Made by a program: the position numbers and the translations under genes | Part shown: piece by piece, positions 79 through 20,290 of the stretch | Layout of the letters: each line of letters starts with the position of its first letter | Numbering within the stretch: the first letter of the stretch is position 1 | Virus record (IMG/VR): IMGVR_UViG_3300007344_000340 | Coordinates: 1 to 20,633 of that record | Origin: a virus | Direction: 5' to 3' (one strand) | Length of the DNA: 20,633 nt | The notes under the pieces: generated by a model | Seen by the model: the letters and a program-made list of their open reading frames with translations, nothing else | Told to the model about the DNA's origin: nothing | Database searches by the model: none

Positions 79-477
79 ATGACACAAAATTGGGTAAAAG
101 ATATTGCAGATATGCATACAAAATATGGAGTTAATGAAAAGGTCAGAGAATTTGATGATGAAAAGCTTAAAACGTTTTTAGAGTTTCGTATTAATTTTCT
201 ACAAGAAGAATTGGATGAACTGAAAGCTGCCGCCGCTTCAAGCGATAGTGAAGAAATTGTAGATGCATGTATTGATCTATGTGTTGTAGCAATTGGAACT
301 CTTAATGCATTTGATGTAGATGAGTATAAAGCTTGGGATGTGGTGCATGATGCTAATATGTCAAAAGAGGTCGGTATTAAAGAAAGTCGGCCAAATCCAC
401 TTGGTTTGCCAGATCTCATTAAACCCAACGGTTGGGTTGGACCTTCCCATGAAGGTAATCATGGATTATTAAAATGA
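79..477 (+). CDS. MazG-like nucleoside triphosphate pyrophosphohydrolase
   Basis: This 132-residue protein resembles the all-alpha NTP pyrophosphohydrolase (MazG / phosphoribosyl-ATP pyrophosphatase) superfamily, which hydrolyses (d)NTPs to monophosphates and pyrophosphate using Mg bound by acidic clusters. The first cluster is EELDE at residues 43-47. The second is EEIVDACID around 58-66. The C-terminal half has the phage-type tail with HDAN near 90 and a KPNGW stretch near 116-120. A GAGAGGAG Shine-Dalgarno supports the ATG at 79. The stop overlaps the next start by ATGA. In a hydroxymethyl-dCMP operon an enzyme of this type could supply or clean up dNMPs, by analogy with T4 dCTPase, but substrate specificity cannot be read from sequence. 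Confidence 0.75.
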   Translation: MTQNWVKDIADMHTKYGVNEKVREFDDEKLKTFLEFRINFLQEELDELKAAAASSDSEEIVDACIDLCVVAIGTLNAFDVDEYKAWDVVHDANMSKEVGIKESRPNPLGLPDLIKPNGWVGPSHEGNHGLLK

Positions 478-1034
478 ATAACTCACTTCTATCTTATATA
501 GAAAATATTTTTAATGATATTGGTAACTTAGTTATTGATGAAGAATTCATTTCATTACGCAACAAAATGAAAAATCGGCTTGGTCAAGGCGATCGGAGTG
601 ATATTAAGTTTACAAAGGACGTAGATTGTCTTGTATTAGAAGAGTATTTAATTAAAATGGGTTTAGTTAATGCTCCACTTAAAGAACATATTCATAGAGG
701 TGGAGCGTGTGTTTATGATGCAATAGTAAAGACACAAGATAAAAATTCATATATAGACTTTAAATGTATACCATCATCTTCAAGCTATTATAATGTATCA
801 AAACATAAAATGAAAACCCATGAATGGGTTCAATCGGGTATAAATTCTGGTATATTGACACACTACTGTTTTTATAAAATGCATCGACCATTTGATAAAC
901 CGCTTATGGTTGGTGATGATGTTAGGTTTGAACTTATTAATGTTGTCCAAGCCCAGCACGTAATGAATAATTTAACGCCGTCAAAATATGGCGGAAAATA
1001 TTGGAGGGTACCGAAATATGCCAGAACAACGTGA
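474..1034 (+). CDS. PD-(D/E)XK-like putative nuclease
   Basis: I do not recognise a named family for this 186-residue protein. The middle carries the layout of a PD-(D/E)XK nuclease core: an acidic helix with E56-E57, then a strand with D82 (VYDAIV), then a strand D95-F-K97 (YIDFK) separated by a short loop, followed by a helix with W118-Q120. This fold covers restriction enzymes, Holliday resolvases and phage exonucleases. It is translationally coupled to the MazG-like gene upstream (ATGA) and overlaps the next gene by 17 nt. It sits at the head of a cytosine-modification operon, so a nuclease that discriminates modified from unmodified DNA is an attractive guess, but that is inference. Confidence 0.4.
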   Translation: MNNSLLSYIENIFNDIGNLVIDEEFISLRNKMKNRLGQGDRSDIKFTKDVDCLVLEEYLIKMGLVNAPLKEHIHRGGACVYDAIVKTQDKNSYIDFKCIPSSSSYYNVSKHKMKTHEWVQSGINSGILTHYCFYKMHRPFDKPLMVGDDVRFELINVVQAQHVMNNLTPSKYGGKYWRVPKYARTT

Positions 1035-1350
1035 GTCCGTGAAGGTTCTACAAGAATGTGTGGAATTACAAATCAGTAAATCTAAGGATTATCAAAACCC
1101 AAATTCTAATGTGAAACAAGCTATGCATTATCGACGCGGGGTAGATTCTATTCATGATACTATGCATGGGAAGATGTTGCGCGCCCAAAGTTTGCTTGAG
1201 TCTGGAGAGACTGCTAATTTTGAGTCGTTAGAAGATACATATAAAGATCTTATTAATTATGCAAGCTTTGCAGTATCATATATCAGAGGTAAAATGGAAG
1301 GGCAAGACCCCGATCTAGATTATCTTAATAGACCAATTGAAGGTGAATGA
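1018..1350 (+). CDS. DUF1599/Nmad1-like nucleotide-modification-associated protein
   Basis: The start at 1018 is chosen over an in-frame ATG at 988 because GGAGGG at 1003-1008 is correctly spaced for it. The product is 110 residues. It shows an all-helical pattern I associate with DUF1599 (nucleotide modification associated domain 1, MazG-like fold): an SKSKDY motif near the N-terminus, then GVDSIHDTMHGKMLRA in the middle, and a late helix ESLEDTYKDLINYASFAVSY. In this family the His/Asp/Glu positions are thought to bind metal and a nucleotide. Placement directly before dCMP hydroxymethylase fits a role in the modified-nucleotide pathway. The family call comes from memory of the pattern and is moderate. 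Confidence 0.55.
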   Translation: MPEQRESVKVLQECVELQISKSKDYQNPNSNVKQAMHYRRGVDSIHDTMHGKMLRAQSLLESGETANFESLEDTYKDLINYASFAVSYIRGKMEGQDPDLDYLNRPIEGE

Positions 1351-1997
1351 TGCTAAACGTAAATGATATACGAAACCATTTTATAGGTGAATTATCATCT
1401 GGTAATACTATTACGGATAAAACCGGTGTAGAAACCATTGAAATGATAGGTGCAACATTTGAAGCTGATGAACCAATGATTTTTGGTGAAGTCAATGAAG
1501 ATTATGTTGAGCGCGAGTTGGAATGGTATAAATCAATGTCATTGTGTGTAGACGATATTCCGGGCAAAACGCCTGCCATATGGAAAGACGTGGCATGCAA
1601 CGATGGTAAGATCAATTCTAATTATGGTTGGGTTATATGGTCTGACGATAATTTTAATCAATATGAAAATACTCTAGAAGAATTGAAAAATCACCCAAAC
1701 AGCAGACGTGCTGTAATGATTTATAACCGACCTAGTATGTGGAAAGATTATAATGTTAACGGCAGAAGCGATTATATGTGCACAAACGCCGTACAATATA
1801 TGATCCGCGGAGATGAATTGATTTCATTAGTAAACATGAGATCTAATGATGTAGTGTTCGGATACCGCAATGATTTTGCTTGGCAAGATTATGTCGTTAA
1901 ACTATTAGCTAACGATCTGGGTATCAATAAAACAAAAATTATTTGGAATGTTGGTAATCTTCACGTGTATTCACGCCATTTTGATTTGGTAAAATGA
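1347..1997 (+). CDS. 42: dCMP hydroxymethylase (T4 gp42-like)
   Basis: This enzyme of the thymidylate synthase superfamily converts dCMP to 5-hydroxymethyl-dCMP using methylenetetrahydrofolate. It resembles T4 gp42 along its length: KTGVETIEMIGA (25-36), the ERELEWYKS block, INSNYGW (89-95), the SRRAVMIYNRPS segment, SDYMCTNAVQY with catalytic Cys145, and MRSNDVVFGYRND. Asp176 in the last motif occupies the position of T4 Asp179, where thymidylate synthases have Asn; this residue marks cytosine rather than uracil specificity. At 216 residues it is about 30 shorter than T4 gp42 and stops just after HVYSRHF, so the usual C-terminal extension is missing. It starts by ATGATG overlap with the previous stop. 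The phage therefore probably carries hydroxymethylcytosine DNA. Confidence 0.93.
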   Translation: MMLNVNDIRNHFIGELSSGNTITDKTGVETIEMIGATFEADEPMIFGEVNEDYVERELEWYKSMSLCVDDIPGKTPAIWKDVACNDGKINSNYGWVIWSDDNFNQYENTLEELKNHPNSRRAVMIYNRPSMWKDYNVNGRSDYMCTNAVQYMIRGDELISLVNMRSNDVVFGYRNDFAWQDYVVKLLANDLGINKTKIIWNVGNLHVYSRHFDLVK

Positions 1998-3163
1998 TGG
2001 AAGCTACTAAATATTATGATGAATATCTAAGATATTTTAGTCTAGCAAAAGAACAACAATCAAAATGTAATGTGTCAAGTGAACCTCCATATGGTATGAT
2101 TAAACACATCGACAGCAATGTTGGTGATGATCTTATGGAAAATGTTGAATTATATGATGTTGTTGAACGCAAATATGCTGGCTTCTCACAAATAATTCAT
2201 GATGTATTTTATGGATGGTGCGATAATCATCCATACTGGAAAAAGATGGAAGCAGGCCTGGCATCTAGGCCTAGAAAGCAAATTGCCAAAGATTGGACTG
2301 GCAAACATGCAGATTTTGATTTGCCTGAATGGTTGTATGTATTTCTTTTACACCGCGTAACTGGTTCAGCTATTAATTATGCAAAAAAACCATCTGGATA
2401 CTATAACACTATATTATATCACTTGCACCATCATAAGAGCATTGAAGAAATAGTAAATTTCATAAATCACTATACATCTACATTTTATACGTCAGTTGGT
2501 TATCAATTTCCTGCATTCCCTAAACCACCGGCTGGGTCATTATATAAACGCGGTGGGGATTATTACCTATCAGAATTTGCACCACGTTTATGTAGAGAAT
2601 TGGCTGAATGGCTACACAAAAGTAATGCAAAAAAAGACTTCCGTGAAGTCGGTGAGTGGATGTTCGAATGGAATAAAAATAATGGGTTGAGAGCTTATAG
2701 ATTTCAGTATGCTGCATTCTTGGCTGATATTGCTGATTGGTATCCACAATACATCAACCTAGAAAGCCCGTTTTATTATGGCACAAACGCAGTAGAATGT
2801 ATTTCTTATTTGGCTGTTAATTCTAATAAACTTAAAAGAGAAAAATTTCTAGATAGCGTAATGGATCAGATATATACTGATACTGGTGCATATCCATATA
2901 ATGCAGAAGATGTTTGTTGTGATTTTATTAGATGGGTTGAAAACTATATTAAGCCGGGCCATGACTACAATAATTTATGTTTTGACTCGGTATGGTCATC
3001 ATGTAAGATTAAAGATCATCCATACGGCCGCCAGAAAGCAATGATTGATATAGGTATAGTAGAAAGTTTTAATGGTATAACTAATCATCCAGCTGACGAT
3101 ACTATTATTAAAAAGGCTGGAATGAGTGTATGTGAATATAAGAGGGCAGTGAATGGCACATAA
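1994..3163 (+). CDS. Putative base-hypermodification protein (amino acid:DNA transferase / alpha-GPT pyrophosphorylase-like)
   Basis: This 389-residue, mainly helical protein is rich in Trp and Tyr. The central segment RAYRFQYAAFLADI, then the YYGTNAVECI stretch, and the C-terminal NAEDVCCDFIRWVE helix resemble, to my eye, the amino acid:DNA transferase and alpha-glutamyl/putrescinyl-thymine pyrophosphorylase group. Those proteins have a DNA-glycosylase-like helical fold and attach amino acids or polyamines to an activated hydroxymethyl base in DNA. I am not certain of this assignment. Strong circumstantial support is position: it is coupled to dCMP hydroxymethylase (ATGA overlap) and overlaps the PLP enzyme, a pairing known from hypermodified thymidine phages. 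If right, the target here would be hydroxymethylcytosine rather than hydroxymethyluracil. A plain conserved phage hypothetical is the alternative. Confidence 0.45.
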   Translation: MMEATKYYDEYLRYFSLAKEQQSKCNVSSEPPYGMIKHIDSNVGDDLMENVELYDVVERKYAGFSQIIHDVFYGWCDNHPYWKKMEAGLASRPRKQIAKDWTGKHADFDLPEWLYVFLLHRVTGSAINYAKKPSGYYNTILYHLHHHKSIEEIVNFINHYTSTFYTSVGYQFPAFPKPPAGSLYKRGGDYYLSEFAPRLCRELAEWLHKSNAKKDFREVGEWMFEWNKNNGLRAYRFQYAAFLADIADWYPQYINLESPFYYGTNAVECISYLAVNSNKLKREKFLDSVMDQIYTDTGAYPYNAEDVCCDFIRWVENYIKPGHDYNNLCFDSVWSSCKIKDHPYGRQKAMIDIGIVESFNGITNHPADDTIIKKAGMSVCEYKRAVNGT

Positions 3164-4055
3164 TAAACACGTTGTAGATGGTATTAACAAAGATGTTGGT
3201 ATTTTAGGGTGGCAAAAGGCAAAAGAGTATTATCTTAGTATAGCTGAGAATTGGACTGATCCACATCCTGACCCAGTTGTAACTGTACATGATGGTGTTC
3301 TATGTGTTAGAGATGACCTTATTACTGGAACAAAATGCCGTGGCGGCGATTGCTTGATATCTGGGTCTAATGCATCTACTATAGTATATGTTCAACCGCG
3401 AACTGGTCTAGCAGGCGTATCTATTATTGATGTAGCAAAGCGTCACAATAAGAAGGTTAAACTTTTTATGCCGTCATCTCGTAGGATTTCACACCACCAA
3501 GCATGTTGCATAGAGCAGGGTGCCGATGTAGAATTTCATAGAATTGCAGCGATGCCTAATCTTAATAGAATTGCACAAAGGTGGGCCGAAGAACATGAAG
3601 ATTCATTTTTTGTTCCATTGGGCCTTAGGCATGAATTAGTAACTGCCGGAATTGTAAAGGCTGCATCTACGATAGAAGAACCAGATGAGGTTTATGTAGC
3701 TATTTCTACTGGGGTTCTTTCTAGGGCTTTACAAATCGCTTGGCCTAATGCTAAATTCCATTCGGTCGCCGTGTCCCGCAACCTTAAAGCCGGTGAACTT
3801 GGCCGCGCGGAAGTTATTTCAGATCCGATGTTATTTAAACAGAGCGAGAAACCAGAAAATCTTCCACCATTTCCATGTATAGATACATATGATGGCAAGG
3901 TTTGGAAATATATTCCTAAGAATACCGGTAAAAAAATTCTTTTCTGGAATGTTGGCAAAGAGCCAGTGTTGCACGATGAAACTATATACGATAAGGTAGA
4001 TAGTTATCGTGACTGGCCAAAAAAAGATGTACAAGCAGGTAAACTCAATATATAA
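3153..4055 (+). CDS. Fold-type-II PLP-dependent enzyme (ACC deaminase / D-cysteine desulfhydrase-like)
   Basis: The 300-residue product looks like a tryptophan-synthase-beta-type (fold type II) pyridoxal phosphate enzyme. The RDDLITGTKCRGG motif (residues 53-65) matches the family's ligand motif, with K61 as the likely Schiff-base lysine. After it come alternating strand-helix elements: TIVYVQPRTGLAGVSIIDVAKR, a Rossmann-like strand KVKLFMPSS, and VYVAISTGVLSRALQ, which could bind the cofactor phosphate. Relatives catalyse deamination, beta-elimination or racemisation of amino acids. In phages with hypermodified thymidine, PLP enzymes trim an amino acid after it is attached to the base. The 11-nt overlap with the upstream transferase-like gene suggests the same here. 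The ribosome binding site is AGAGGG just before 3153. Confidence 0.65.
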   Translation: MAHNKHVVDGINKDVGILGWQKAKEYYLSIAENWTDPHPDPVVTVHDGVLCVRDDLITGTKCRGGDCLISGSNASTIVYVQPRTGLAGVSIIDVAKRHNKKVKLFMPSSRRISHHQACCIEQGADVEFHRIAAMPNLNRIAQRWAEEHEDSFFVPLGLRHELVTAGIVKAASTIEEPDEVYVAISTGVLSRALQIAWPNAKFHSVAVSRNLKAGELGRAEVISDPMLFKQSEKPENLPPFPCIDTYDGKVWKYIPKNTGKKILFWNVGKEPVLHDETIYDKVDSYRDWPKKDVQAGKLNI

Positions 4056-4063
4056 GTAATATT

Positions 4064-5092
4064 ATGAATATTTTGATTACATCTCCGTTCACCCACATCT
4101 CTAAGAACATACATTCACATAGAGCAGCTCAAGCAGCAATTTATGCTGATCAGTTGTCTAATGTTGGTCATAATGTACATCTAGATATAAGTGGTGATAT
4201 TGCCCCAGACCCAAATACATTTGATGAAGTTTATGTCTATCATGGAAATGATTGGGCAGGCTCATTGAACCTTTTTGGCGGCATGAAGAATTATGGTGGC
4301 ATTGATAATTTAATTAGATATTCTAAGATAAAGTCTAAAGTTTACTCTCTGTGGATTGATCACCCTAAATATTCTGAAATGCTTAAATCAAGGATGAATG
4401 GTGATATTCATGATGATTGGAATAAAGTAGATTGGAATAACCTTAATCTAATAGAAAACCAGTCAACTATCATTAGAGAAATTGAAGATACTGACAAAAT
4501 TGTTGTTGGTGATAGTCATGCAATTTCTATGTATCGTCCAGGTTGGTTTGTTAATTCTGTACCGTTTAAAACTCTTCATGGAGCACTTAAGGAAAAGTTA
4601 TCTTCATTTATTGAACCAAATCATAGAATTGCTGAGTTTTATTTTGGTAACATTGATGTCAGACATCATCTTTTGCGTATGAAAAACCCAGAAAAATCTA
4701 CTAGAAATCTAGTTAATGCGTATTATAATCAACTGTTGGAACTTGATTTGGATGAAGTTTCAGTATACGAATTGCTTCCTATTGAAAATGAATGCAGGCA
4801 AATTCCAAAGTCTGGTCATTATAAGAATAAGCCATTTCATGGTAGTTGGAATGAGCGAAACAATATAAGGCTTATTTTTAAAAACGAAATGGAAAAGCTT
4901 TGTGCTAACAGCAAGATTAAGTTTATATCATGGGTCGATTATCTTATAAATGATAAAGGCGAATTAAGTTTTTATCATATGGAAAAGCCAAGGTCAGTTC
5001 ATTTATCTAGAAATTCATACCCACACTGGCAAGGTAGGAAATGGTCGGGTTTAGGCGAAACCTTTGCAACATTAGATAAGTTCTTTAAATGA
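4064..5092 (+). CDS. Two-part protein with an SGNH/GDSL-like C-terminal half
   Basis: I do not recognise the full-length family (342 residues). The N-terminus (1-140) begins with a hydrophobic strand MNILITSPF and reads like a Rossmann or glycosyltransferase-type domain. From about 145 there are SGNH-hydrolase-like blocks: VVGDSHA (147-153, with S151 as possible nucleophile), LHGAL (171-175), EFYFGNIDVRHH (191-202, the Gly/Asn block) and PRSVHLS (309-315, H313 as possible catalytic His). The usual Asp three residues before the His is not present, so catalysis is unproven. SGNH folds include esterases and acyltransferases. It lies between the PLP enzyme and dCMP deaminase, and overlaps the latter by ATGA, so it may act on the modified nucleotide or base. 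Confidence 0.45.
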   Translation: MNILITSPFTHISKNIHSHRAAQAAIYADQLSNVGHNVHLDISGDIAPDPNTFDEVYVYHGNDWAGSLNLFGGMKNYGGIDNLIRYSKIKSKVYSLWIDHPKYSEMLKSRMNGDIHDDWNKVDWNNLNLIENQSTIIREIEDTDKIVVGDSHAISMYRPGWFVNSVPFKTLHGALKEKLSSFIEPNHRIAEFYFGNIDVRHHLLRMKNPEKSTRNLVNAYYNQLLELDLDEVSVYELLPIENECRQIPKSGHYKNKPFHGSWNERNNIRLIFKNEMEKLCANSKIKFISWVDYLINDKGELSFYHMEKPRSVHLSRNSYPHWQGRKWSGLGETFATLDKFFK

Positions 5093-5583
5093 AATTAAGC
5101 GAAATATTTACAGACGTAGTTTCTATATCTAACTCAGATCCAAAATATAAATGGACTAATAGGTATATGAATATTGCACGGGAAGTTTCTACTTGGTCAA
5201 AGGATCCAAATACTCAGGTTGGTGCGGTGTCTGTGATTGATGGTCGACCGCTATCATTTGGTTATAATGGATTTCCTAGGGATATAGAAGATACAGATGA
5301 ACGGTTGCATAACCGGGAATTAAAATATGAACTAGTAGTTCATGCAGAAAAGAATGTTATATATAATGCCTGTTATAATGGCATTTCATTGAAAGACTCG
5401 GACCTATATGTACATGGTCTTCCTATTTGTAATGAATGTGCCAAAGCTATTATCCAAGTAGGCGTTAAGAATGTTTATATGGAAGATGTAGAATATACTT
5501 CTGAAGTGTGGTTGAAAAGTTTCTATTCATCGTTAGGTATGTTTATTGAGAGTAATATCAATGTATATGCATTGGAAAATTAA
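5089..5583 (+). CDS. cd: Deoxycytidylate (dCMP) deaminase
   Basis: This zinc-dependent enzyme deaminates dCMP to dUMP, feeding thymidylate synthesis. The signatures of the cytidine/dCMP deaminase family are clear: KDPNTQVGAV (38-47), GYNGFPR (58-64), the catalytic VHAEKN with H85 and E87, and the zinc-binding LPICNECAK with C114 and C117. At 164 residues it is close to T4 Cd (about 190) but slightly shorter. The start overlaps the previous stop. Having deaminase and hydroxymethylase in one operon lets the phage divide the dCMP pool between dTMP and hydroxymethyl-dCMP, as in T4. It is the last gene of the first chain; a 125-nt gap follows. Confidence 0.92.
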   Translation: MKLSEIFTDVVSISNSDPKYKWTNRYMNIAREVSTWSKDPNTQVGAVSVIDGRPLSFGYNGFPRDIEDTDERLHNRELKYELVVHAEKNVIYNACYNGISLKDSDLYVHGLPICNECAKAIIQVGVKNVYMEDVEYTSEVWLKSFYSSLGMFIESNINVYALEN

Positions 5584-5708: not shown

Positions 5709-6602
5709 ATGAGTAAAATTGAGTCACTAACCTCAGAACAGGAAGCACTGTTGCCGGTCTATGCCCAAGAAGGTATTAAGATTGGTATGTCAACAGAGCC
5801 TCTTGATTTTGATAAGGCTAAGGTAGCAGTTGAAATGGCTTATAAGGCCGTTGATCTTGATCCGCCCGCCAATTTCCATGTAGCGGATAGCCCCATGCAT
5901 GCGATTGACATGATTTCAAAAATGGACTCATCACAATCTAAGAATGATATTCTTAATAACATGTGTTATGGGTTCCAAGATATCCCATGGCTTCAGTTTT
6001 ATAAATACTTCCGAGATGAACTTGACATTGAAGAATGTCATAAGCTTGACGGATTGATTGAGCTCGCTAACCATTGTGGTTGGTGGTCTCCATATGATAC
6101 TGATGCAATTCTTCAGCACCGCCCTACTGCCATTATGACTGATGAAGAAGGTCGTGCACACTGTGACTTCGGACCAGCCATTGAATATCGTGATGGTTTT
6201 GGTGTATATGTCTGGCACGGTGTTCGTTTCCCAGGTGATTGGGTTGAAAAGCCTGAAACCCTGACACCCGAAGTTGCCCTTACGTGGGAAAATATCGAAC
6301 AGCGCCGGGTGGCATGTGAATTGCTTGGTTGGAACAAAATCCTTGATGAATTGGGTTATGTGACAATCGACAAAGATGAAGACCCAGAAGTTGGTATGCT
6401 TGTTGAAGTAGACTTGCCTGACTCTGGTAAGGAACGGTTCTTGTTGGTACAATGTGGTACCGGCCGTGAATTTGCTCTGCCAATTCCACCTGCCCGAGAT
6501 TACCTATCAAGTGACCAAACCGATACTGCTTTGGCTGCCAATATGTGGTCTTATGGTATTGACGATGTTAACGACTACATTGTTCCCGAGGTAAGAACTT
6601 AG
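5709..6602 (+). CDS. DUF6745-like protein
   Basis: The 297-residue product matches the pattern I recall for DUF6745: a helical N-terminus, then GFQDIPWLQFYKYF (about 87-100), ELANHCGWWSPYDTDAIL, the RPT segment, DEEGRAHCDFGPAIEYRDG, and VYVWHGVRFPGDW. The later part contains LTPEVALTWENIEQRR, which in relatives pairs with a conserved Arg-rich helix. Family members occur widely in actinobacteria and some phages and have no established function. It is expressed from its own early-type promoter, and the next gene follows after 15 nt with a good Shine-Dalgarno. Codon use here is somewhat more GC-rich than in the flanking genes, which may indicate separate acquisition. Confidence 0.6.
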   Translation: MSKIESLTSEQEALLPVYAQEGIKIGMSTEPLDFDKAKVAVEMAYKAVDLDPPANFHVADSPMHAIDMISKMDSSQSKNDILNNMCYGFQDIPWLQFYKYFRDELDIEECHKLDGLIELANHCGWWSPYDTDAILQHRPTAIMTDEEGRAHCDFGPAIEYRDGFGVYVWHGVRFPGDWVEKPETLTPEVALTWENIEQRRVACELLGWNKILDELGYVTIDKDEDPEVGMLVEVDLPDSGKERFLLVQCGTGREFALPIPPARDYLSSDQTDTALAANMWSYGIDDVNDYIVPEVRT

Positions 6603-9550: not shown

Positions 9551-10213
9551 GTGAATATCTTTGAACTTGACCGAGTGACGACTACGGCTGCCAAATACCA
9601 CAATGACAAGCATGTGGTCAAGATGAATATCGAGTATGCTCAATTGCTGTCCACTGCACACCGTATGCTGGACGGCACCGAGTATTATGACCAGACTGCA
9701 AATGGTCGCAAGATTAAGCGTTGGCGCCATCCAGACGCAGTGCTAGAAGACAATCTATACAAGGCTACTCATCCTAATCATCCATCTGCAATCTGGGCTA
9801 GACATAACAAACAAAACTACCAGTGGCTTTTCAGTCTATGGGTTGCATTGCTAGAAGAATACACGTTTCGGTATGGCAAAGTCCATGGTTGTGCCAAGTT
9901 GATTCCATATCTCAAGTCTGCACCAAAGAATATCAAACCTGGTGCCAGAACTCCTGTTACACCTGCAATGCCAGATGCATACAAGATTCCAGGCGATACG
10001 GTAGAGTCTTATCGTAAATACTACAACCATGACAAGATTAAACTAGCCGCATGGAAAAACAGAGAGGTCCCATACTGGTGGTCTCCCTCTACACTGCCGC
10101 CAGAGCCAAAGGAAGAAGTCTCTATTGTGAAAGACGAGCCAATGGAATTCGTTGAGAAGAATGCTGGTGTTGTTAGAGGTATTAGAACGGAGGAATACGA
10201 TGTCACTGACTAA
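9551..10213 (+). CDS. Conserved phage protein, first paralogue (possible Pyr_excise-like fold)
   Basis: The 220-residue product starts at GTG 9551 with AAAGG about 10 nt upstream. It is paralogous to the gene at 19760: both have MNIF-LD at the N-terminus, then DKHVVKM, the AQLL-TAHR block, NGRK, LYKATHPNHPS, WAR, EYT-RY, PxAMP and a YRxYY motif near the C-terminal core. The DKHVVKM...AQLLxTAHR segment reminds me of pyrimidine-dimer DNA glycosylase-like (Pyr_excise / endonuclease V) proteins, but I cannot confirm this and the T4 DenV catalytic N-terminus is not obvious. This copy has an extra C-terminal tail of about 40 residues, acidic and Pro-rich, absent from the other. Confidence 0.65.
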   Translation: MNIFELDRVTTTAAKYHNDKHVVKMNIEYAQLLSTAHRMLDGTEYYDQTANGRKIKRWRHPDAVLEDNLYKATHPNHPSAIWARHNKQNYQWLFSLWVALLEEYTFRYGKVHGCAKLIPYLKSAPKNIKPGARTPVTPAMPDAYKIPGDTVESYRKYYNHDKIKLAAWKNREVPYWWSPSTLPPEPKEEVSIVKDEPMEFVEKNAGVVRGIRTEEYDVTD

Positions 10214-18120: not shown

Positions 18121-18323
18121 GTCAGGGATCAAGTCGAAAAACAAATACATGAAACCACTTAAAAGTCAAGTTAGTAATCAAGTCAAGAATAAAGTCTTGA
18201 ATCAAGTCTGGTATCAAGTTTATGATCAAGTCTGGTATCAATTCAGGGATCAAGTCAGGTGGCAAGTCAAGGATCAAGTCGAGTGGCAAGTCTGGGATCA
18301 AGTCAGTGATCAAATACATGAAA
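18121..18323 (+). repeat. Degenerate 12-nt tandem repeat (x-x-Gln-Val coding)
   Basis: The unit is two variable codons followed by CAAGTC, repeated about a dozen times from 18169 to 18312 with an isolated earlier piece at 18121-18150. The variable codons are mainly GAT, TGG, TAT and AGG/AAG. The two ends carry a matching CAAATACATGAA sequence (18142-18153 and 18310-18321), one on each side of the array, suggesting an internal duplication or slippage event. Confidence 0.8.
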
Positions 18324-18349
18324 AAAATATTTTAAAAAATGTAAAATAG
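18149..18349 (+). CDS. QV-repeat protein
   Basis: The 66-residue product is built from four-residue units ending in Gln-Val, for example NQVWYQVYDQVWYQFRDQV, with a charged C-terminal tail. Such xxQV runs occur in hypothetical proteins of bacteria and large phages; regular spacing suggests an amphipathic beta or helical stack, function unknown. No good Shine-Dalgarno precedes the ATG at 18149. A short frame from ATG 18117 stops at TGA 18150-18152, overlapping the start (ATGA), and could couple translation. A third frame upstream (18121-18162) encodes VRDQVEKQIHETT, a remnant of the same repeat protein's C-terminus. The gene may therefore be a rearranged remnant. Confidence 0.5.
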   Translation: MKPLKSQVSNQVKNKVLNQVWYQVYDQVWYQFRDQVRWQVKDQVEWQVWDQVSDQIHEKNILKNVK

Positions 18350-18964: not shown

Positions 18965-19447
18965 ATGTATACAGTTTATAAAATAACAAATATAGAAAAT
19001 ATGAAAACATATATTGGAGTTCATAAAACCGACAATCCAAATGATTCATATATGGGAAGCGGTATAGCAATTAGAAATGCCATAAAAAAATATGGTAAAG
19101 ATTCTTTTACTAAAGAAATTTTATTTGTTACTGATGTTAAAGAAGATGCTTATCGTAAAGAATTTGAACTAACAGAAGATTATAATTCAAGTTCTAACTA
19201 TAATATGAAGCAAGGTGGAGTCGGTGGATTTACTGCAGAAAATGCTAGAAAAGGTCATATTGCTAGATCTAGAAAAGGCGGCCAGAAAGCAGTAGAGCTT
19301 GGAAAAGTTTGGAATCAGGAAACTGCTAAAATATCAGGTTCTAAAGGTGGTAAAGCCAACAAAGGCAAAGCCAAATCAGAAGAACACAAACAGAAATTAC
19401 GTGAAACATGGATTCGTAAGAAACAAAAAAATACCCCACCCGTGTGA
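18965..19447 (+). CDS. GIY-YIG homing endonuclease (Seg-like)
   Basis: The 160-residue protein has the GIY-YIG fold at its N-terminus: VYKITN (4-9) and TYIGVHKT (15-22) supply the two tyrosines, YMGSG (29-33) follows, and E67 in RKEFEL is the likely metal-binding Glu, with NYNMKQGG near 78-85. The C-terminal part is Lys/Gly-rich; NKGKAKSEEHKQKLRETW resembles the NUMOD3 DNA-binding motif. Free-standing T4 Seg proteins are similar and spread their own genes by cutting relatives that lack the insertion. It sits inside a broken tRNA gene, with its own late promoter. The intron-like boundaries expected for self-splicing are not visible. Confidence 0.88.
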   Translation: MYTVYKITNIENMKTYIGVHKTDNPNDSYMGSGIAIRNAIKKYGKDSFTKEILFVTDVKEDAYRKEFELTEDYNSSSNYNMKQGGVGGFTAENARKGHIARSRKGGQKAVELGKVWNQETAKISGSKGGKANKGKAKSEEHKQKLRETWIRKKQKNTPPV

Positions 19448-19478: not shown

Positions 19479-19552
19479 TGCCCCATCGTCTAAAGGTAGG
19501 ACAACGGATTTTGATTCCGTTTGTGTTGGTTCGAGTCCTCTCGGGAGTACCA
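19479..19552 (+). tRNA. Chimeric tRNA-Gln (UUG) with a foreign 3' end
   Basis: The 5' part is a good tRNA-Gln: TGCCCCA, D stem GTC/GAC, and anticodon stem ACGGA/TCCGT with loop TTTTGAT (anticodon TTG). The 3' part does not fit. The T stem is GTTGG against CCTCT, and the acceptor TGCCCCA faces CGGGAGT. The 3' acceptor matches the 5' half at 18895 instead. The join lies in the shared GGTTCGAGTCC T-loop sequence. It is probably non-functional as a normal tRNA. Confidence 0.65.
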
Positions 19553-19607: not shown

Positions 19608-19760
19608 ATGCAAGAAGAAGCTGTGAAAATTGTTGATATGAATCAGCGGCAATTTGTTGAATTGCTCCGTATAGTATCCAAATATAAGGGTATTCATCCT
19701 GATGAAGAAGTTTATGATGTAGCTGAAGAAATAATCGAGATGATTAAGGATGGACTATAA
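19608..19760 (+). CDS. Small helical hypothetical protein (50 residues)
   Basis: The frame opens at ATG 19608 after ATAAGGA and closes with TAA at 19758-19760, sharing one base with the next start (TAATG). The acidic product contains NQRQFVELLRIVSKYKG and DEEVYDVAEEIIEMIKDG, a two-helix layout. I know no family. Good ribosome site and coupling to the next gene make it likely to be real. Confidence 0.6.
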   Translation: MQEEAVKIVDMNQRQFVELLRIVSKYKGIHPDEEVYDVAEEIIEMIKDGL

Positions 19761-20290
19761 TGAACATATTCTATCTAGATGAGTCACCTAACGTATCTGC
19801 TCAATGGTTGGTAGATAAGCATGTAGTAAAGATGATACTAGAAACTGCCCAACTATTATGTACTGCCCACCGAGTATTAGATGGTAAACAAATAGATAGT
19901 ATTAAGAATGGTAGGAAATACAAAAATTACATACTTGAAGATTTTAGGGATGATATTTTATATAAGGCTACTCATGTTAATCATCCTAGTTCGGTTTGGG
20001 CCAGGGAATCGGTTGAAAACTATCTTTGGTTGGTAGAACACTTCTTTGCTCTAGGTGATGAATATACTCACCGATATGACAAGAGCCATAAAAGTATTAT
20101 CAAATTAGGTCTTACTGTACAGAATCCTCCTCATGGTTTACGTGATTGGGATATGACTAAAATGCCATGTGCTATGCCAGAAGAGTATATAGTGAGTGAT
20201 GATCCGATTACAAATTACAGAGAATACTATTCTAAAGGTAAAACAGACTTACATACTTGGACTAATAGGGCCAAACCAGATTGGATATAA
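19760..20290 (+). CDS. Conserved phage protein, second paralogue (possible Pyr_excise-like fold)
   Basis: This 176-residue protein is the second copy of the family found at 9551. Shared blocks include MNIFYLDESP, DKHVVKMILETAQLLCTAHR, LDG, LYKATHVNHPSSVWAR, YLWLVEHFFAL, EYTHRYDKSH, PCAMPEEY and NYREYY. It lacks the long acidic tail of the other copy and ends shortly after a Trp-containing segment. The conserved Lys/His (DKHVVK) and Arg residues could form a DNA-glycosylase-type active site, but this is a weak inference. The gene is coupled to the small gene before it. Its stop codon lies within the late-promoter box at 20286. Confidence 0.65.
   Translation: MNIFYLDESPNVSAQWLVDKHVVKMILETAQLLCTAHRVLDGKQIDSIKNGRKYKNYILEDFRDDILYKATHVNHPSSVWARESVENYLWLVEHFFALGDEYTHRYDKSHKSIIKLGLTVQNPPHGLRDWDMTKMPCAMPEEYIVSDDPITNYREYYSKGKTDLHTWTNRAKPDWI

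Follow-up and report, generated by a model that had tools for sequence, protein, structure and literature searches.

Organization and distribution of the module

The virus record IMGVR_UViG_3300007344_000340 of IMG/VR was analysed over its whole length of 20,633 bp, referred to here as the window; it is probably a fragment, and it carries T4-like replication genes encoding a DNA polymerase, UvsX and a DnaB-like helicase. Our subject is a module of five genes, all on the plus strand, that fill positions 1347-5583 and may together hypermodify cytosine. An initial annotation, made from the sequence alone, had described these genes as an overlapping chain, and the open reading frame (ORF) coordinates agree (overlaps of 4, 11 and 4 nt), apart from a single 8-nt gap between 4055 and 4064. 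It had also proposed a hydroxymethylcytosine derivative carrying an amino-acid-derived or acyl group as the product, which is still the best-supported reading of what the module would make. The five genes are listed below.

1347-1997, plus strand: dCMP hydroxymethylase of the T4 gp42 type, 216 aa (match to structure 1b49, E 1.8e-84)
1994-3163, plus strand: helical protein of 389 aa, candidate transferase on hydroxymethylcytosine DNA (AlphaFold2 fold match to 8z2n)
3153-4055, plus strand: pyridoxal phosphate (PLP) enzyme of fold type II, 300 aa, phage M6 gp52 family (phrog_7093, E 2.7e-39)
4064-5092, plus strand: chimera of a beta-glucosyltransferase (BGT) N-terminal domain and an SGNH fold, 342 aa (hhalign to BGT; AlphaFold2 fold match to 2hsj)
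5089-5583, plus strand: dCMP deaminase, 164 aa (PF00383, E 3.9e-18; phrog_174, E 1.2e-37)

The deaminase, identified as such from the start, is assigned a role in nucleotide supply, and its gene is optional among relatives.

The 389-aa protein is encoded by at least 585 virus contigs. In each of the 27 loci flanked by 3 kb at both ends it is accompanied by the PLP gene and the 342-aa gene together, and in 25 of the 27 by the hydroxymethylase gene as well. Gene order varies across the 118 loci compared, in which some contigs appear twice, and includes the orders hydroxymethylase-389-PLP-342, hydroxymethylase-342-PLP-389 and 389-335-342-PLP, where 335 denotes a further gene, orf335. Median dN/dS values lie between 0.04 and 0.13 across all five genes, showing strong purifying selection. 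Because of this selection and the unbroken linkage the gene set is not a chance association: the module is real, widespread and conserved, with the full set so far seen only in uncultured viruses. No relative of the 389-aa protein was found in isolate phage records.

Hydroxymethylase and choice of base

Residues 4-215 of the first protein align with the T4 gp42 structure, a homology spanning the whole enzyme that bears out its naming as a T4-type dCMP hydroxymethylase. The catalytic Cys145 (T4 Cys148) and Asp176 (T4 Asp179) are invariant in 92 of 92 aligned sequences. An aspartate at the T4 179 position has been described as the selector for cytosine (PMC8670742), and since neither residue ever varies in the 92 sequences, the substrate base predicted from them is most likely cytosine, not uracil. 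A uracil-type hydroxymethylase, as expected of a 5-hydroxymethyldeoxyuridine (5hmdU) pathway, is not what the module encodes, as Asp176 is of the cytosine type. We therefore rejected a thymine pathway for the module.

PLP enzyme

The third protein, proposed initially as a fold-type-II PLP enzyme, belongs to the same hypermodification family as gp52 of phage M6. Comparison with the M6 gp52 family by hhalign (98.2%, E 4.8e-14) includes the C-terminal signature PFP..YD.K.W....FWN.G, and the PLP-binding Lys61, within an SxKxRG-like motif, is invariant in 19 of 19 sequences. In M6-like phages a gp52-type PLP enzyme is found in a cassette with a hydroxymethylase, aGPT-Pplase1, a kinase, a radical SAM enzyme and aGPT-Pplase2 (PMC9476957). 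Erythrobacter phage R6L, which has no gp42-type hydroxymethylase, encodes a gp52-type PLP domain inside a ParB-like/N6_N4 methylase fusion protein (L009:6867-9289), the ParB-like label being taken from the N-terminal sequence and from the annotation of Microcystis phage neighbours. This fusion points to DNA as the substrate of the PLP enzyme, which is a candidate decarboxylase or lyase of a DNA-bound amino acid.

The 389-residue protein

No meaningful sequence match to the 389-aa protein was obtained in Pfam, PHROG, NCBIfam or the PDB. Eighteen members of its family gave no match to ADDT (PF18724) or to HMUDK_hel (PF18723) at E 10, and neither domain was matched in the module contigs; in thymine systems the kinase has HMUDK_hel as its helical partner. 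A link by sequence to ADDT, HMUDK_hel or the PDB was thus abandoned, fold comparison alone being successful. An AlphaFold2 model built from 18 relatives (pLDDT 72, pTM 0.75) is mostly helical, and its top match by VIA-align is PUGT of phage PaMx11 (8z2n; Z 10.0, root mean square deviation 4.1, 207 residues), followed by the helix-hairpin-helix (HhH) DNA glycosylases AGOG and Ogg (Z 7.8-6.4). Among the BFVD viral models it resembles A0A6J5L8T5 (61% identity), which is named as an amino acid:DNA transferase domain protein, and more weakly the ADDT-domain protein A0A6J5LCY1 and the PhiW-14 5-hmdU-kinase helical domain protein C9DG43. The resemblance to amino acid:DNA transferases claimed from the sequence is accordingly upheld by fold and not by sequence. 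At the fold level the model supports membership of the amino acid:DNA transferase/aGPT-Pplase group, with its HhH-glycosylase-like fold; annotated viral neighbours and genomic context share the weight of the transferase assignment.

The BGT/SGNH chimera

The AlphaFold2 model of the 342-aa protein (pLDDT 82) has an SGNH fold at about residues 95-319, in keeping with its description as an SGNH-like protein. It matches the platelet-activating factor acetylhydrolase-like protein 2hsj (Z 13.7, 167 residues) and the peptidoglycan O-acetyltransferase PatB (8tlb, Z 11.7). Residues 1-111 show homology to the T4 BGT N-terminal domain (hhalign 96.0%, E 4.2e-9), with LNLFGG paired with INFFGG and the confident part of the alignment stopping at residue 111; weak BGT matches recur among relatives of the chimera. 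The C-terminal, UDP-glucose-binding domain of BGT is not found, and the SGNH fold occupies its place. The initial annotation, which saw no glucosyltransferase of T4 type, thus holds for the UDP-glucose half, but it overlooked the BGT homology at the N-terminus.

In 34 diverse members GDSH (149-152), Gly173, Gly195, Ile197 and Asp198 (GxID, 195-198) and His313 are invariant, so that Ser151 of SGNH block I, Gly173 of block II and His313 of block V are each present in 34 of 34. This arrangement suggests a fusion in which the acceptor-binding half descends from a glucosyltransferase of hydroxymethylcytosine and the other half is of the acyl-transfer type with altered chemistry, and makes the chimera a candidate hydroxymethylcytosine-activating acyl-transfer enzyme.

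Relatives of the chimera occur in 43 isolate records, of Aeromonas, Stenotrophomonas and Tenacibaculum phages. In Aeromonas phages 44RR and 31 a 795-aa protein (PHG31ORF233c, phrog_17781) corresponds to the chimera over its N-terminal ~320 residues, with 31-32% identity. Its C-terminal region in 44RR has a weak HMUDK_hel match, which lies below the curated cut-off and is a hint only. In phages 44RR and AS-gz the chimera is accompanied by a gp42-type enzyme but not by a PLP enzyme, ADDT or kinase, and from this gene content it most likely can act on hydroxymethylcytosine itself.

Search for kinases and other modification enzymes

In phages M6, ViI and PhiW-14 further modification of the base follows its phosphorylation by a 5hmdU DNA kinase (PMC6449724). 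A search for the corresponding family, PF18748, detected it in M6, the positive control, but in none of the module contigs searched and in neither of the complete phages 44RR and AS-gz, which supports the reported lack of a hydroxymethyl-base kinase. When two relatives, 164 and 160 kb long, were scanned for Walker A motifs with the pattern [GA]xxxxGK[ST] only, no kinase-like protein emerged; the ORFs detected, labelled from motif, size and N-terminus, resemble gp41 helicase, PhoH, gp46 or gp44, or look like chance motifs. Activation of the hydroxymethyl group should accordingly fall to some other factor, unless the chemistry itself differs. The initial annotation had left activation to a factor from elsewhere or to another route; as the kinase is missing from the two ~160 kb relatives too, the first of these has become less probable, and the leading candidate for the activating role is the chimera, which constantly accompanies the transferase.

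The M6-type radical SAM enzyme is absent from near-complete relatives, which makes a carbon-linked aminoethyl group unlikely and leads us to expect an N- or O-linked aminoalkyl group. N- or O-linked groups occur in PaMx11 or ViI, and a carbon-linked aminoethyl group in M6. No BGT above the family cut-off was present in the 12 records searched.

A proposed pathway and its alternatives

The homologies, folds, conserved residues, gene linkage and absence of known kinases observed above can be arranged into a pathway of four steps. The gp42-type enzyme, by its homology, makes 5-hydroxymethyl-dCMP; all reactions beyond this point are ones that we infer. The product would be phosphorylated to the triphosphate and incorporated into DNA instead of cytosine. 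The glucosyltransferase-like half of the chimera would then bind the flipped-out hydroxymethylcytosine, and its SGNH half would esterify the 5-hydroxymethyl oxygen in DNA, creating a leaving group and standing in for the P-loop kinase of the thymine pathway. The 389-aa transferase, judged by its fold, would displace the ester with an amino acid, for instance glycine or serine, and the PLP enzyme, judged by its family, would decarboxylate or otherwise trim the attached amino acid to give an aminoalkyl-type group. Amino-acid-type hypermodification would be post-replicative, and its product would shield the DNA from restriction and CRISPR nucleases.

Our confidence differs among the parts of this scheme. 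We regard an amino-acid-derived hydroxymethylcytosine as a somewhat probable final base, and the pathway as a whole, a cytosine hypermodification with the chimera in an activating role, as evenly balanced. Esterification and activation by the chimera, the second step taken by itself, is plausible at somewhat less than even chances, and we put forward only tentatively the kinase-free route in full, in which an ester made by the chimera is replaced with an aminoalkyl group by the PUGT-fold transferase and the PLP enzyme.

Several observations weigh against the pathway. The chimera lacks the canonical Asn of SGNH block III (Ile197 in 34 of 34) and the Asp of block V (position 310 is K, Q, S or R), losses that were read from the sequence motif and not from a structure superposition, and because of them the chemistry of the SGNH half is uncertain. 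The transferase link of the 389-aa protein is one of fold, drawn from a moderate-confidence model with 70 residues below pLDDT 50; among helical proteins a Z of about 10 is not an extreme value, and it supports the link without being conclusive, and sequence profiles, hhalign included, tie the protein to neither ADDT nor HMUDK_hel. A T4 gp1-type deoxynucleotide monophosphate kinase, present in T4 and 44RR, is absent from the module contigs searched, a gap in the proposed route to hydroxymethyl-dCTP. Finally, the large contigs (160-164 kb) in which no kinase was seen are not proven complete.

The alternative that survives best, although we think it unlikely, retains the same class of product and has the base activated by an unrecognised or host kinase, with the chimera acting last to acylate or deacylate the amino group or a hydroxymethyl group still present. 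This would suit the SGNH folds, which include O-acetyltransferases and esterases such as PatB (8tlb) and 2hsj, and it would follow the known thymine pathways, described as passing through a phosphorylated base (PMC6449724). It is hard to reconcile with the want of PF18748 in the contigs searched and of a Walker A kinase candidate in the two ~160 kb relatives, or with the Aeromonas phages, whose possession of the chimera and a gp42-type enzyme without the transferase or PLP enzyme suggests direct action on hydroxymethylcytosine.

Improbable, in our judgement, is a simple ester of hydroxymethylcytosine, for which the PLP enzyme and the 389-aa protein would make or load the acyl donor and not have DNA as their substrate. 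Carbamoylation of hydroxymethylcytosine is a proven O-acyl precedent (PMC8670742), and the joining of an SGNH acyl-transfer fold to a hydroxymethylcytosine-binding-like half would fit such a product; yet DNA as substrate is indicated both by the fold of the 389-aa protein, shared with a DNA-base transferase and with DNA glycosylases, and by the PLP enzyme, which belongs to a DNA-hypermodification family with a member fused to a ParB-like/methylase protein in R6L.

More doubtful again is the reading of the chimera as a glycosyltransferase whose donor domain has diverged, in which case the DNA would be sugar-modified, as it is in T4, RB69 or Thanatos. This reading would account for the homology of the N-terminal half to T4 BGT and for the galactose transporter or UDP-galactopyranose mutase gene that adjoins the chimera relatives of Aeromonas phages, but an SGNH fold, in which GDSH and His are conserved, has taken the place of the donor half, and the 12 records searched hold no BGT above the cut-off. 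A plain glucosyltransferase is disfavoured by the same replacement of the donor half. Last, an ordinary nucleotide-metabolism operon with unrelated neighbours, as the MazG enzyme, DUF1599 protein and deaminase might suggest, is very improbable given that three rare families are invariantly linked over many contigs, in shuffled order and under purifying selection.

Hypermodifications of the amino-acid type are known on thymine, and the known decorations of cytosine are sugars or a carbamoyl group; the literature searched yielded no account of phage DNA with an amino-acid-derived cytosine. The pathway that we favour, with the chimera as activator, would possibly represent base hypermodification of the amino-acid type transferred to cytosine, together with a new activation step. 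If so, novelty would lie in the base as well as in the activation chemistry, a new way of activating a hydroxymethyl base would come to light, a tool enzyme for attaching amines to 5-hydroxymethylcytosine would become available, and the proteins of unknown function in the 43 cultured Aeromonas, Stenotrophomonas and Tenacibaculum phage records would be explained. With the transferase in at least 585 environmental contigs, the product may be among the commoner unknown DNA bases of environmental phages.

Neighbouring genes

Two genes upstream of the hydroxymethylase also have nucleotide-related assignments.

79-477, plus strand: MazG/PRA-PH nucleotide pyrophosphohydrolase (PF01503, E 5.4e-11; phrog_671, E 5.3e-23)
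988-1350, plus strand: DUF1599, 'nucleotide modification associated domain 1' (PF07659, E 4.4e-7)

The MazG/PRA-PH gene adjoins the module in many relatives, and its product would possibly deplete unmodified dCTP. The DUF1599 gene shares 4 nt with the hydroxymethylase gene and is upstream in most relatives.

Of 120 module loci, 70 have a gene absent from the window, orf335 (~330 aa, e.g. L002:3559-4566), beside that of the transferase; in many relatives it lies between the transferase and PLP genes, and it is also present in L167, L196, L198, L222, L223 and L225. The dCMP deaminase occurs in 14 of the 70 loci with orf335, as against 38 of the 50 without it. We considered orf335 as an HMUDK_hel-like protein and make no such claim, the motif being collinear but statistically weak (hhalign 0.8%). 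A C5-cytosine DNA methylase gene (L002:6507-7730; PF00145, E 1.5e-16) is on the chimera locus, as it is in L200, L213, L219, L220 and L222, and directly adjoins the chimera in L002 and L222.

Just downstream of the module, several T4-like relatives have a glycosyltransferase-like gene (phrog_1574; L186:11572-12423), with similar proteins encoded at L167:12399-13316, L198:4736-5698 and L222:13927-14772, and sugar-nucleotide enzyme-like genes follow the module in L002. In the window itself a DUF6745 protein (E 6.3e-31) is encoded directly downstream, at 5709-6602 (plus strand). Two paralogous phrog_624 'DNA binding protein' genes are at 9551-10213 and 19760-20290 (plus strand). A 66-aa ORF at 18149-18349 (plus strand) consists of 12/24-nt tandem repeats, with nearly six copies of 24 nt reading DQVWxQV-like. 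A homing endonuclease gene at 18965-19447 (plus strand), of the GIY-YIG type by PHROG match, adjoins a tRNA cluster. Rfam reports a fourth tRNA at 19480-19549 (plus strand; 31.5 bits) that ARAGORN does not call and that lies opposite a minus-strand ORF.

Comparison with known modification systems

The Pseudomonas phages M6 and SN1, which carry 5-aminoethyl-dU, share with the module a hydroxymethyl pyrimidine maker, a PLP enzyme of the gp52 family and, in gp51 (aGPT-Pplase2), a protein of the same fold group as the 389-aa protein; the orf335 of many module relatives also faintly resembles M6 gp55. They differ in that their hydroxymethylase is of the uracil type whereas that of the module is of the cytosine type, and in having the P-loop kinase and radical SAM enzyme that the module lacks, while the BGT/SGNH chimera is not seen in M6. 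The 5-PmdU glycinyltransferase of PaMx11 (gp46, PUGT; 8z2n) is the closest solved fold to the 389-aa protein, although the two are only 6% identical. The substrate of PUGT is phosphorylated hydroxymethyluracil, and the module has no kinase for such a substrate.

T4 contributes two homologies, of gp42 to the hydroxymethylase and of the BGT N-terminal domain to the N-terminal half of the chimera, but the UDP-glucose half of BGT is replaced in the chimera by the SGNH fold. In 44RR and 31 the chimera forms the N-terminus of the 795-aa protein, and 44RR has a gp42-type hydroxymethylase too; the C-terminal extension with its weak HMUDK_hel match sets this protein apart, and neither PLP enzyme nor ADDT was found in 44RR. 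The hydroxymethylcytosine carbamoyltransferase found by MetaGPA is a case of non-sugar decoration of the hydroxymethylcytosine oxygen (PMC8670742), and has similar neighbours (thymidylate-synthase family, MazG-type PRA-PH, deaminase), but is an unrelated enzyme that adds a carbamoyl group in one step. The deoxypentose-cytosine of Shewanella phage Thanatos is likewise a hypermodified cytosine of a new type, guarding against restriction and Cas nucleases (PMC12838424), but it is a sugar modification made via a sugar-nucleotide enzyme and glycosyltransferase-fold proteins.

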